Source: a bacterium (GTDB lineage: Bacteria > Patescibacteriota > Saccharimonadia > Saccharimonadales > Saccharimonadaceae). From it: a DNA stretch of 45,186 nucleotides. Under the pieces are notes generated by a model. That model was not told where the DNA came from. It did not search any database and was given only the letters and a program-made list of their open reading frames with translations. The position numbers and the translations under genes are program-made. Shown piece after piece: positions 9,272 through 13,885 of this stretch. The stretch is from the NCBI GenBank assembly GCA_030429445.1, contig JAUIFG010000008.1:1-45186 (forward strand). Reading direction: 5' to 3'. Each line of letters opens with the position of its first letter. Within the stretch, counting starts at the first letter, position 1.

Positions 9272-10264
9272 TTACTTTTTCTTTTTTGCAGCACCGTTTA
9301 CTTCATAGCTTGTGTTGGTTGCTTCAAAGAAGTTAACGAGTTGTAAAGTATCGTTTGCTGTTGCCATCCATTTTGCTGGATTACCTACATTATAGTGCGC
9401 GTCAAACCCAAGCTCTTCTAGCCGACGATCCGCCAAATATTTCACATATTGATTAATGTAATCGGCGTTTAGTCCCAAGATGCCATTTGGCAACAAATCC
9501 TTGTTGTACTGCTCTTCCATCTCGACACCGTCCAGAATCATTTGCTTGATTTCATCAGCAAATTCTTCGGTTTGTAAATCCTCGTTCTCTTCGAGAACCG
9601 TCAGAATCAGATTAATACCAAACTTCAAATGTAACGACTCATCACGAACTACCCAGTCAATCATTGTGCCAAAGTTACGCAACAAATTACGCTGGCGGAA
9701 TGACAACGCAACCATAAACCCGCTATAGAACCAGATGCCTTCGAGGATGATATTGTACGCAATCATATTACGAATGAAGTCCTTTTTGCCCTCAGTTGTC
9801 GTGATATCCAACGTATCCTCTGTCATACGCTTGATGAATTTCGTTTCAAATTCCTCTTTGCGTGCCATACTAGGCGTATCAACATGCGCCGCATACGATG
9901 CCTCACGATCAATCGGAAACGTCTCGAGTACATATTCAAATGACATACAGTGGTTAGCCTCTTCCCACATCTGCTTTGCCAGATACAGGTGACACTCGGC
10001 AGCATTGACGTATGGGTACACGCCAAAAGCAAGCGCCTTGTTAACCAGCAATTCATTTGGATTAAAGTAACTCATCAGGAATGTCACCGCATGACGCTCC
10101 TCATCGCTCATTTTTTTCCAATCAGCCAAATCTTGACCAAGCTGAATTTCGTTAGGAAACCATGTATTCGCAACGGCTTGATCATACAGATCCATCGCCC
10201 ATTGATAATGTACTGGTTTAAGTAATAATCCGTCCTGGATACCAGTGCCGAGAATGCCTGCCAT
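9272..10264 (-). CDS. nrdB: Ribonucleotide reductase small subunit, class Ic-like
   Basis: 330-residue ferritin-like R2 subunit that houses the metal site starting the radical for ribonucleotide reduction. Aligning by spacing to the E. coli R2 ligands gives E71, E102, H105, E175, E209 and H212 (the ExxH pairs are EANH and ESLH, and every spacing agrees). The position of the radical Tyr122 is Phe109 (HCMSF), and the first ligand is Glu rather than Asp. Both are hallmarks of class Ic (Mn/Fe) R2 from Chlamydia. Y320 near the C-terminus may serve radical transfer. The basic tail is KKKK. It is the last gene of the nrd operon, 105 bp after the 57-aa ORF, with an AAGGA-like sequence upstream of ATG 10264. 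Confidence 0.95.
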   Translation of the reverse strand: MAGILGTGIQDGLLLKPVHYQWAMDLYDQAVANTWFPNEIQLGQDLADWKKMSDEERHAVTFLMSYFNPNELLVNKALAFGVYPYVNAAECHLYLAKQMWEEANHCMSFEYVLETFPIDREASYAAHVDTPSMARKEEFETKFIKRMTEDTLDITTTEGKKDFIRNMIAYNIILEGIWFYSGFMVALSFRQRNLLRNFGTMIDWVVRDESLHLKFGINLILTVLEENEDLQTEEFADEIKQMILDGVEMEEQYNKDLLPNGILGLNADYINQYVKYLADRRLEELGFDAHYNVGNPAKWMATANDTLQLVNFFEATNTSYEVNGAAKKKK

Positions 10265-10624: not shown

Positions 10625-13033
10625 TCATGTTCCCACCGTTTGCTTCTTAGCAAAACCAAAGCCTTTTTTGCGCGCACCCCCTTCGGACATTGATTCAGCC
10701 TTATTTACTTTCACTGTGCTCTGTTCAGCCGTATGACGAGGCTTTACGTGCAGGTAATAGGTCGTCTTGAGGCCTTTTTTCCATGCACTCATGTAAATAT
10801 TCTCGTATTCATCCAAGTCACGTGTTTCCAGATACATGTTACGGCTAATCGCCTGATCAACCCATTTCTGAGCACGACCTGCGACCTCGATAAATGCATA
10901 CGGACTCAACTGGAAGCTCGTCTTGTACACATTCTTGATGTGTTCAGGAATTCCATCAATCTGCTGAATATCACCTTGTCGTTGCAACACTTCATCCTTA
11001 ACTCTTTCCCATAGGCCAAGCTCTTGCAGGTCACGGATCATATTTACATTTACCTCAAGGAATTTACCGTTCAATGTCGCACGGCTAAAAATCTGTGCAA
11101 ATTGTGGATCCAAGCCTGGAGTCGTACCAGCGATATGTGCAATATTTGCAGTTGGTGCAATTGCCATAAGTGTTGCATTACGCATACCCTTCTTTACCTT
11201 GGGGCGTAGCTTTTCCCAGTCCATGCGCGCCTTGCGCTTGATATCAACACGAACGTTGCGATCTAGGTCGAGTTGGTCGATTGTATCAATCGGTAGCACG
11301 CCTTTACTCCAACCACTGCCACGGAATTCTGGATAACTGCCCAGTTCCTTTGCCATATCGGCACTAGCATCAATCGCGTGATAACTGATAAATTCAGTCA
11401 CTTGATCGATAAGGTCATAAGCTTCCTCTGATTCATAGCTATAACCTAGTTTTTCAATAACATCAGTAAAGCCCATCAATCCTAATCCCAATGCACGGTT
11501 TTGCTTGTTACTGTTCATTGCCTGCGGAATTGGCGTATTTGTAATGTCGCACAGATTATCTAGCTGACGAATCGCACTACGCGAGCTGCTGGCCAAACGA
11601 TCCCAATCCCACGTTTTATTCTCGGCATTGAAATGAGCCGACAAATTCACGCTAACAAGATTACACACAGACGTGTTCTCGCTATCCTGTGGCAACGTAA
11701 TTTCAGTGCAAAGGTTACTATGATGAATAGTTCCGGTGTTGTTGTTTAGCGCACGGACATTAATCGTATCTTTCCAGGTTAGCCACGGATGACTGGTTGC
11801 CTGTAGTACTGTCAGGATCTGACGATATTGCTCACGAGCACTCATCTTTGTAAAATCACGCATCTCGCCCTTTTCAGCCAACTTAACGTATTCGTTATAG
11901 CGCTTACTGAACTCTTCGCCATATAGTTCGGTTAGATCTGGCGTGTCAGCTGGATCAAACAAATACCAATCTTTGTCTTTTTGCACACGCTTCATGAACT
12001 CGTCACTCAAATATACTGCTGTATTTGCAATTCGTGTACGCAAATATGGATCACCGCTGTTTTGCTTTAGATCCAAAAACTGTGCAAAGTTGAGGTGCCA
12101 ATTTTCCATGTAAATAGCGGCTGCGCCTTGCTTTTTGCCCTTACGACTAACGGCAAATAACGCCGTATCAAGCATCTTGATAAATGGAATGGGGCCGGTT
12201 GATTCGGTATTTGTTGTCTTGACCGGACTACCTGCAGCGCGAAGTTTAGTGATACCAATGCCGATACCACCCGTACCCTTGGCAATCCACATTGTATCGC
12301 GAACACCCCTGGCAATTGATTCCATATCATCATCAATATTGAACAAGAAACAATTCGATAGTTGCGGAAATGAACCGCCAGCATTCACCCGAGTGCTACC
12401 GCCAGGTACGTATTCCAAGCGACTCATATGGTCATAAAAATCAAGCGCAGCTTTGGTTGGATTTTTTTCATTAAAACTCAAGCCCATTGCAATACGCATA
12501 TGCGTAAATTGTGGTACTTCAAGTGGCTCCCCGCTCTGCTTACGCAAAGCATAGCGATTTTTGTTTGTCACAACCCCTAGATATTTACTCAAGTGATCAC
12601 GTTCTGGGTCAATCGCTGCAGCTAGTTTCTTGATGTCGAAAACTTTGCTGTTCATACGCTTATCAAGCAAGCCATCGGCAATACCTTCACGCAAATACTT
12701 GGCGAAGTGTTTTTCATGCAACTTCTTTAGTTCATCAGCATTTTTATATTTACCGAGAATATTTTTGTAAATATTCTTTAGTAGTAGACGTGCTGCAATC
12801 TTGTCAAAATCGGGGTCATCTTTGACGTTTTGCAATGCCGTATGTATGAGCGCTTCGTCCAATTGTTGTGTTGTAATACCATCAAATAATGTCAGTTGTA
12901 GTTCGGTTGCCACCTGAACAACTTTTTGTATCTGATCAGCAAGCCCCTCACTGGCTTCGACCAGGGCGAGATTGACTTGATTGGCGTCGAACGGTTCGCG
13001 AGCGCCATCACGCTTCACTACAGATATGCCCAT
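10625..13033 (-). CDS. nrdA: Ribonucleotide reductase large subunit (class I), lacking the C-terminal Cys tail
   Basis: 802 residues. Reduces ribonucleoside diphosphates to deoxy forms. Residues 1-90 form an ATP-cone (VVKRDGAREPFDANQVNLAL), implying dATP feedback control. Catalytic cysteines are visible in LSNCFLFN, NLCTEI and SVCNLVSVNL (equivalents of E. coli C225, C439 and C462). The radical-transfer Tyr pair is TTYYLHVKP. After this the protein ends in a basic, cysteine-free tail (GGARKKGFGFAKKQ), so the usual redox CxxC is missing; the next ORF carries one. ATG 13033 follows an AGGGGG Shine-Dalgarno sequence. The operon is nrdA - 57-aa ORF - nrdB, expressed through a long structured leader. 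Confidence 0.97.
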   Translation of the reverse strand: MGISVVKRDGAREPFDANQVNLALVEASEGLADQIQKVVQVATELQLTLFDGITTQQLDEALIHTALQNVKDDPDFDKIAARLLLKNIYKNILGKYKNADELKKLHEKHFAKYLREGIADGLLDKRMNSKVFDIKKLAAAIDPERDHLSKYLGVVTNKNRYALRKQSGEPLEVPQFTHMRIAMGLSFNEKNPTKAALDFYDHMSRLEYVPGGSTRVNAGGSFPQLSNCFLFNIDDDMESIARGVRDTMWIAKGTGGIGIGITKLRAAGSPVKTTNTESTGPIPFIKMLDTALFAVSRKGKKQGAAAIYMENWHLNFAQFLDLKQNSGDPYLRTRIANTAVYLSDEFMKRVQKDKDWYLFDPADTPDLTELYGEEFSKRYNEYVKLAEKGEMRDFTKMSAREQYRQILTVLQATSHPWLTWKDTINVRALNNNTGTIHHSNLCTEITLPQDSENTSVCNLVSVNLSAHFNAENKTWDWDRLASSSRSAIRQLDNLCDITNTPIPQAMNSNKQNRALGLGLMGFTDVIEKLGYSYESEEAYDLIDQVTEFISYHAIDASADMAKELGSYPEFRGSGWSKGVLPIDTIDQLDLDRNVRVDIKRKARMDWEKLRPKVKKGMRNATLMAIAPTANIAHIAGTTPGLDPQFAQIFSRATLNGKFLEVNVNMIRDLQELGLWERVKDEVLQRQGDIQQIDGIPEHIKNVYKTSFQLSPYAFIEVAGRAQKWVDQAISRNMYLETRDLDEYENIYMSAWKKGLKTTYYLHVKPRHTAEQSTVKVNKAESMSEGGARKKGFGFAKKQTVGT

Positions 13034-13073
13034 GTTCCCCCTTTTGGTATTATTGTTTTCCTCTTACACCTTG

Positions 13074-13177
13074 ATCCCTGCTCCGACGTGTCTCTCAGGT
13101 ACGCCATTGAATTACTGGGATGCAAGAAAACGCCCTATCTATGCAGATGCTGGGCGGCGGTTTCCCTCCGTCTTGCA
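13074..13177 (-). ncRNA. Structured 5' leader of the nrd operon (candidate riboswitch or attenuator)
   Basis: The minus-strand leader of about 185 nt holds a compact three-way junction. P1 is 13171-13177 with 13121-13127 (7 bp). P2 is 13168-13170 with 13158-13160, closing a 7-nt purine loop (AGGGAAA). P3 is 13152-13156 with 13131-13135, extended by an ATCT/AGAT stem. A second domain pairs 13117-13121 with 13074-13078 and contains a stem of 13101-13105 with 13085-13089. I match it to no riboswitch class I know; cobalamin, TPP and T-box signatures are absent. The 40 nt to the start codon include the Shine-Dalgarno sequence. The pairing is seen; the regulatory role is inferred. Confidence 0.5.
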
Positions 13178-13223
13178 CGATGTGTATTTTTGTTGAACTA
13201 CTACTACGTAGCGTCTACATACG

Positions 13224-13252
13224 ACTATAGACCCTATATATGTGGGTTTCAA
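13224..13252 (-). promoter_or_regulatory. nrdA promoter with an NrdR-box-like motif in its spacer
   Basis: Minus strand TTGAAA (13247-13252), 17-nt spacer, TATAGT (13224-13229). The spacer (13231-13246) reads ACCCTATATATGTGGG on the plus strand, 11 of 16 positions of the NrdR-box consensus ACACTATATATAGTGT. NrdR is the ATP/dATP-responsive repressor of nrd genes in most bacteria. Confidence 0.55.
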
Positions 13253-13330
13253 GTCTTTTTATAGGTTTTTTTCACTACACGGCCATTTAGCTTACGTTAA
13301 CCCCTTATAGTGTTGTAAATAACAAACACT

Positions 13331-13346
13331 ACGCTATATATAGTGT
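13331..13346. promoter_or_regulatory. NrdR-box-like site
   Basis: ACGCTATATATAGTGT matches the NrdR consensus at 15 of 16 positions and centres on a 10-bp palindrome. A half-site (TATAGTGT, 13306-13313) lies about three helical turns away. It sits about 85 bp upstream of the nrdA promoter and overlaps a possible plus-strand -10 (TATATA, 13335-13340, with TTGTAA at 13313-13318). Confidence 0.5.
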
Positions 13347-13447: not shown

Positions 13448-13885
13448 ATGTCAGTTGATTTTAGCCAGACATATCTATACAAAATGCACCGATTAACAAA
13501 CTCGTTGGATCAAGCGTTCGACACTGCCCTACGCCAACATTCTGGTATTGGATTATCGCAATTCACCCTACTATTGGCAGTCAAACAGCACCAACCAGCA
13601 ACACAGTCAACCATTGCACGCTTTTTGGATATATCGCCCGCTGCCGTCAGCCGTCAAGTTGAAGTAGCTGTCAAAAACGGCTGGATCAAAATCGTCCACA
13701 AAGACAACGATCAACGAACCCACCAACTACGCGTCACTACCAACGGCAAAGAAACAATCCAACAAGGAACCGAACAACTAGAAAACCACGTCTTTAACAT
13801 CTTTGCAGATGACGACCATCAAGCAAGCCTAATGGAACACATCGAGACATTGCAACGAAATATCGACTCCCTTGATAAAAAATAG
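13448..13885 (+). CDS. MarR-family transcriptional regulator
   Basis: 145-residue winged-helix repressor that would act as a dimer on DNA. N-terminal dimerisation helix (TYLYKMHRLTNSLDQAFDTA), then LSQFTLLLAVKQHQPATQST and the recognition helix region ISPAAVSRQVEVAVKNGWI. The beta wing holds DNDQRTHQLRVTTNGKE, the usual D-x-R-x-x-x-L-T-x-x-G of MarR proteins. The C-terminal helices complete the dimer interface. ATG 13448 follows AAAGGAG; the longer frame starting at 13343 runs through promoter and operator and is rejected. Ligand and targets other than its own operator are unknown. The next gene (SIMPL) has its own -10 region. Confidence 0.9.
   Translation: MSVDFSQTYLYKMHRLTNSLDQAFDTALRQHSGIGLSQFTLLLAVKQHQPATQSTIARFLDISPAAVSRQVEVAVKNGWIKIVHKDNDQRTHQLRVTTNGKETIQQGTEQLENHVFNIFADDDHQASLMEHIETLQRNIDSLDKK

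Follow-up and report, generated by a model that had tools for sequence, protein, structure and literature searches.

What kind of RNA lies ahead of the ribonucleotide reductase genes of a Saccharimonadaceae bacterium, and on which step of their expression would it act? Ribonucleotide reductase (RNR) makes DNA precursors, the class I enzymes are metal enzymes, and many bacteria regulate RNR through NrdR, through allostery and in some cases through cobalamin riboswitches. The window, by which we mean the whole analysed stretch of 45,186 nt (contig JAUIFG010000008.1, GCA_030429445.1), carries nrdA and nrdB on its minus strand. A sequence-only reading had singled out the leader of this operon as an unassigned structured RNA fitting no riboswitch signature known to it. 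Both statements are borne out here, as the leader shows covariation and has no match to any Rfam family. We consider it likely that the leader is a conserved structured cis-regulatory element of the nrdAB mRNA, belonging to one Saccharibacteria family, which acts on the translation of nrdA. A structured RNA of this kind, dedicated to RNR and shared within a family of reduced, host-dependent bacteria, would add a further layer to the control of the enzyme, and if a ligand were found it would represent a new sensor class.

Results

Gene setting and promoter region

The features of the locus are collected in Table 1. Close database relatives whose titles are informative belong mostly to Candidatus Saccharibacteria or Saccharimonadia, and the nearest NrdA proteins outside Saccharibacteria are those of Microbacteriaceae (Actinobacteria), 66-71% identical over the N-terminus, a likeness that suggests gene exchange with actinobacteria. 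The divergent neighbouring gene (13448-13885) encodes a MarR-type regulator according to Pfam. The 16S 3' end reads GGATTACC in these bacteria, which is why a search pattern for its usual form gave no match; the 16S 3' ends compared with the ribosome-binding site (RBS) of nrdA were taken by direct reading of the sequence in two family genomes.

The element had been placed between the predicted transcription start and nrdA. It does lie upstream of nrdA on the minus strand; the start, like the promoter, is a consensus match only, and a like arrangement is visible in most family leaders. We infer a transcription start at about 13217, and a promoter at 13252-13224 would therefore give the nrdA transcript a leader of about 180 bases. 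An element on the plus strand was rejected, as promoter, gene order and conserved helices are all on the minus strand.

The NrdR-box-like sites at the promoter and the presence of nrdR in 14 of 14 genomes tested resemble what is seen in NrdR-regulated nrd operons, but NrdR acts on promoter DNA and leaves an RNA element downstream of the promoter unexplained. Between both NrdR-box-like sites, a block TGTTATTTACAACACTA..TAAGGTGTT (about 13290-13325) is strongly conserved in the genus and its relatives, and is possibly a further operator or a DnaA-type site. The palindrome at 13198-13212 could be either an RNA hairpin or a DNA/protein operator.

Table 1. Features of the nrdAB locus and of its leader, ordered by position in the window.
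Feature	Positions	Strand	Basis
nrdB, small chain	9272..10264	-	Pfam
nrdA, class I ribonucleotide reductase large chain	10625..13033	-	Pfam RNR barrel and ATP-cone
Ribosome-binding site AGGGGG of nrdA	13037..13042	-	compared with 16S 3' ends ACCTCCTTTCT, two family genomes
Whole structured element, P0 to P0	about 13065..13186	-	R1 and R2 covariance matches span 13063-13188
P0, 3' strand GUGUA	13065..13069	-	swap test; RNAalifold
P5, 3' strand GGGAU	13074..13078	-	genus pair counts
P4 hairpin GGCGU-ACCUGAGAGAC-ACGUC	13085..13105	-	genus pair counts; swap test
Loop GAGAGAC of P4 hairpin	13090..13096	-	invariant in genus
P5, 5' strand AUCCC (base 13121 common to P1)	13117..13121	-	genus pair counts
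P1, 3' strand UCUUGCA	13121..13127	-	genus pair counts; RNAalifold
P3 hairpin	13133..13154	-	two pairs with two-sided changes
P2 hairpin CGGaGGgaaaCCgCCG, genus-specific	13155..13170	-	genus pair counts
P1, 5' strand UGCAAGA	13171..13177	-	genus pair counts; RNAalifold
P0, 5' strand UACAC	13182..13186	-	swap test, 0/5000 permutations (phylogeny ignored); RNAalifold
5' hairpin or palindrome CTAC..GTAG near transcript start, near-palindromic CTACATATGTAG-type	13198..13212	-	read in nearly all family leaders
Predicted promoter TTGAAA-17-TATAGT, sigma-70-like	13224..13252	-	consensus scan; kept in family leaders
NrdR-box-like palindrome ACCCACATATATAGGGT, promoter spacer	13231..13247	-	conserved
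NrdR-box-like palindrome, distal, ACACTATATATAGCGT	13331..13346	-	conserved in family leaders

Architecture of the leader RNA

The outer stem P0 joins two arms, one formed by P1 and the other by a hairpin with a purine loop. The first arm consists, in the window's genus, of P1 bearing the hairpins P2 and P3, and in many other genera of a P1 extended to 9-14 pairs whose terminal loop often contains GCUAC. The stem of the hairpin in the second arm differs between genera, and its purine loop reads GAGAGAC (the window's genus and some others) or is GGGGAGG-like; in several genera, for example in leaders L101, L105, L111, L113 and L123, the purine loop is located in the first arm. This loop motif is present in 75 of 86 leaders, not corrected for relatedness, compared with 10.9 in dinucleotide shuffles. 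Across genera, only a few of the unpaired positions are invariant, in contrast to most known metabolite aptamers.

These comparisons modify the fold that had been proposed for 13074-13177. Its core stems P1, P2 and P3 are predicted on the genus alignment, but its extent was too short, the outer stem P0 (about 13065-13186) having been missed. The AGGGAAA loop of P2 had been offered as a signature and has to be given up as one: the loop also reads GUAU, GUAAA or GCAGU within the genus, and no P2 hairpin was seen in the directly read leaders outside it. A second domain is present as suggested, yet it is not a pseudosymmetric copy of the first but the P5/P4 hairpin, with a covarying stem and the GAGAGAC loop.

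Covariation of the helices

Single-sequence folding energy is ordinary and lends the element no support. The segment 13177-13074 folds with -30.7 kcal/mol compared to a shuffled mean of -28.3 (z -0.73), 41 of 200 shuffles being as good, and a longer stretch of the leader gives a z of -0.53. On the genus alignment, RNAalifold predicts P0, P1, P2, P3 and P4. Standard pairs occupy 94.9% of the pair cells in this alignment compared to 86.7% after shuffling, and two-sided changes are found at 10 pairs and in 25 cells compared to 4.9 and 6.4, values that 0 of 500 shuffles reach in either case; a wider set of 21 leaders agrees with these counts. Two-sided changes affect 5/5 pairs of P4 and 3/3 modelled pairs of P5, while P2, paired in 96% of its cells yet nearly invariant, is only weakly tested.

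The alignments used for pair counting were fitted to a model already holding those pairs, and alignment-free swap tests were therefore added, in which the 5' strand of a helix is paired, leader by leader, with its own 3' strand and with those of other species. In permutations that ignore phylogeny, the own partner scored higher for P0 (12.54 vs 10.85; 0/5000), for the inner P1 extension outside the genus (3.28 vs 1.31; 1/20000) and for P4 in 47 leaders (11.98 vs 9.21; 0/20000). Because phylogeny is ignored and a small number of leaders with faulty parsing were omitted, we read these figures as strong support and not as exact probabilities. A MAFFT alignment of the other genera was excluded, as P0 was out of register. 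Judged by these sequence comparisons, P0, P1 and P4 covary. A covariance model built from relatives was the check that the sequence-only reading had proposed, and it came out in favour of the element: covariation was found and relatives retain the stems ahead of nrdA.

Distribution and link to nrdA

By DNA similarity, the leader was found just before nrdA in 10 of 10 genomes of the window's genus. A first covariance model (R1), built from three sequences and searched against 245 family genomes, gave 14 matches outside the genus, which were mostly weak and of which 11 lie directly upstream of nrdA. The second model (R2), built from 21 sequences, matched 54 of the 245 genomes, from 18 genera, with one match per genome, and 52 of these 54 matches are directly 5' of nrdA, a consistent association with one gene as is expected of a riboswitch. 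Among them, 47 are on the same strand and at most 71 bases from the nrdA place (29 outside the training set), and reading of the sequence showed nrdA downstream of five more (three genus members and two others); the last two are a match cut at a contig end and one without an assigned place. Upstream regions were also gathered independently of the RNA, by a search with the nrdA protein that gave matches in 89 of 246 genomes, from 27 genera, and were read directly.

In the search with the NrdA N-terminus, 157 of the 246 family genomes had no match (G010 and G020 among them), and the RNR large chain is absent from two near-complete family genomes tested; family genomes without RNR may import deoxynucleotides. 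The nrdA leaders of Microbacteriaceae gave no match to the model, and inheritance of the element together with an actinobacterial nrdA was rejected on this ground. Viral contigs gave no match to the genus motif.

Comparison with known families

In Rfam 15, the window leader has no match at the gathering score, and raising E up to 5 yields only chance-level matches on the opposite strand. Literature searches on riboswitches and structured RNA in connection with Saccharibacteria, CPR or nrdA yielded no paper with a title or abstract describing the element. The closest parallel in position is provided by the cobalamin riboswitches (clan CL00101: RF00174, RF01689), which in two relatives occupy the same place, as a structured leader immediately before nrdA: L124 has an AdoCbl-II match (213-266 minus, 37.6 bits, above gathering) and L084 a Cobalamin match (146-282 minus, 27.7 bits, below gathering). 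Control of nrdA by RNA therefore occurs in this group. However, the window leader matches neither RF00174 nor RF01689, and an identity as a cobalamin riboswitch was rejected, since the scan that detects L084 and L124 finds no cobalamin core in it. The genomes of L124 and L084 carry a second RNR large chain, whereas the tested genomes with the nrdA leader element have one.

Two further types of riboswitch share single traits with the leader. The yybP-ykoY manganese riboswitch (RF00080) has a purine-rich GGGGAG-type loop similar to the one seen here, but the window leader has no Rfam match to it at E up to 5, nor have the other leaders that were scanned at E up to 0.1. SAM-II and preQ1 are translational riboswitches with a pseudoknot next to the RBS, and many of the other genera likewise have a leader loop that pairs beside the RBS; the architecture is different, though, no Rfam match was obtained and the contact is not found in the window's genus. 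A leader-peptide attenuator was rejected for the genus, as the sole shared frame, MQDGGKPPP, has no start or an early stop in several members and varies in its ends.

Pairing near the ribosome-binding site in other genera

Outside the window's genus, the loop of P1 in many genera pairs within the 16-base stretch ahead of the nrdA RBS, with a swap-test score of 11.00 for the own partner compared to 8.43 for others (0/20000 permutations, phylogeny ignored), and a looser form of the test gave 3/5000. The paired segments differ from genus to genus, for example GCUAC/GUAGC (L083, L063), GCUACAU/AUGUAGC (L061), GCUCCA/UGGAGC (L114), GGCUACGU/ACGUAGCC (L079, L087, L094) and GGUUAG/CUAACC (L074). A covarying contact immediately 5' of the RBS points to translational control. 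In the window's genus, thermodynamic folds and helix lists offered no consistent partner for such a contact or for sequestration of the RBS. An anti-P1 helix, in which the 3' strand of P1 pairs alternatively, was non-significant in this genus (swap test 0.19).

In leaders L086, L093, L095, L099, L076 and L032, a short frame begins behind the purine loop and runs up to the start codon of nrdA, with which its stop overlaps (ATGA), an arrangement that suggests translational coupling in those genera. No frame overlapping the nrdA start was seen in the window's genus.

Discussion

Genus-wide conservation, pair counts, swap tests, linkage to nrdA, a purine loop well above its frequency in shuffles and a single match per genome all support the view that the leader, on comparative evidence, is a real cis-regulatory RNA family tied to nrdA, undescribed within the reach of Rfam and of the literature searches. 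A ligand, either a small molecule or a protein, would stabilise or loosen the junction of P0, P1 and P4, and the purine loop, carried on a freely changing stem, would be its likeliest contact. Depending on the state of the junction, the P1-loop contact of many other genera could then hide or free the nrdA RBS. The output of NrdAB would thus be set by the leader on top of the control of transcription by NrdR.

Whether the leader is a true riboswitch is a narrower form of this explanation, in which the junction binds a small molecule, most plausibly a (deoxy)nucleotide reporting the DNA-precursor pool, and switches nrdA translation. We regard this as possible though short of probable. A conserved structured leader with covariation is what a riboswitch should present, and this reading also fits the single copy per genome, the tie to the RNR operon, the covarying pairing near the RBS in other genera and the cobalamin riboswitches that occupy this position in relatives possessing a second RNR, but the core is variable between genera and the purine loop switches arm in some of them. 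The label of candidate riboswitch given by the sequence-only reading is reasonable, as the element is structured, is present in one copy per genome at one operon and in many other genera has a covarying RBS-side contact. A new class of riboswitch in Saccharibacteria, sensing a (deoxy)nucleotide directly and tuning the translation of the sole ribonucleotide reductase of the cell, appears unlikely to us, the nature of the ligand being a guess from the identity of the gene; if true, DNA precursors would be under feedback at the RNA level as well as under control by NrdR.

With its fixed purine loop, the element would fit recognition by a protein or the ribosome no less well than by a metabolite. 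Recognition of the P4 purine loop by a Saccharibacteria RNA-binding protein that controls translation would account for a fixed loop on a freely covarying stem and for its occurrence in either arm, as expected of a transferable protein site, but the loop is of two types (GAGAGAC vs GGGGAGG), no candidate protein can be named and the remaining architecture would be superfluous, so that we hold such an operator to be somewhat unlikely. Loops of the GGAGG type show complementarity to the 16S 3' end ACCUCCUUUCU and could serve as a standby or decoy site that brings ribosomes to nrdA or to short upstream frames, such as those ending on the nrdA start codon in L086, L095 and L099; with a GAGAGAC loop in the window's genus that lacks this complementarity, and with no conserved upstream frame in that genus, this seems quite improbable. 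A leader without any sensing role, which would only shield the mRNA or hold it open, would be in keeping with an AT-rich sequence, a 5' hairpin and the output contact not being found in the window's genus, yet strict linkage to nrdA and the covarying RBS-side contact of other genera would be unexpected of a generic stabiliser, and we judge a passive role highly improbable. Regulation of nrdA translation through the structured leader is the reading that we prefer.

Leaders from lineages without the element have a feature of their own. Rfam gave no separate match for a CCGAGGATCAGATCTCGG-like hairpin; a small hairpin near CCGAGGATCAGATCTCGG recurs upstream of nrdA in L084, L116, L124 and L127.
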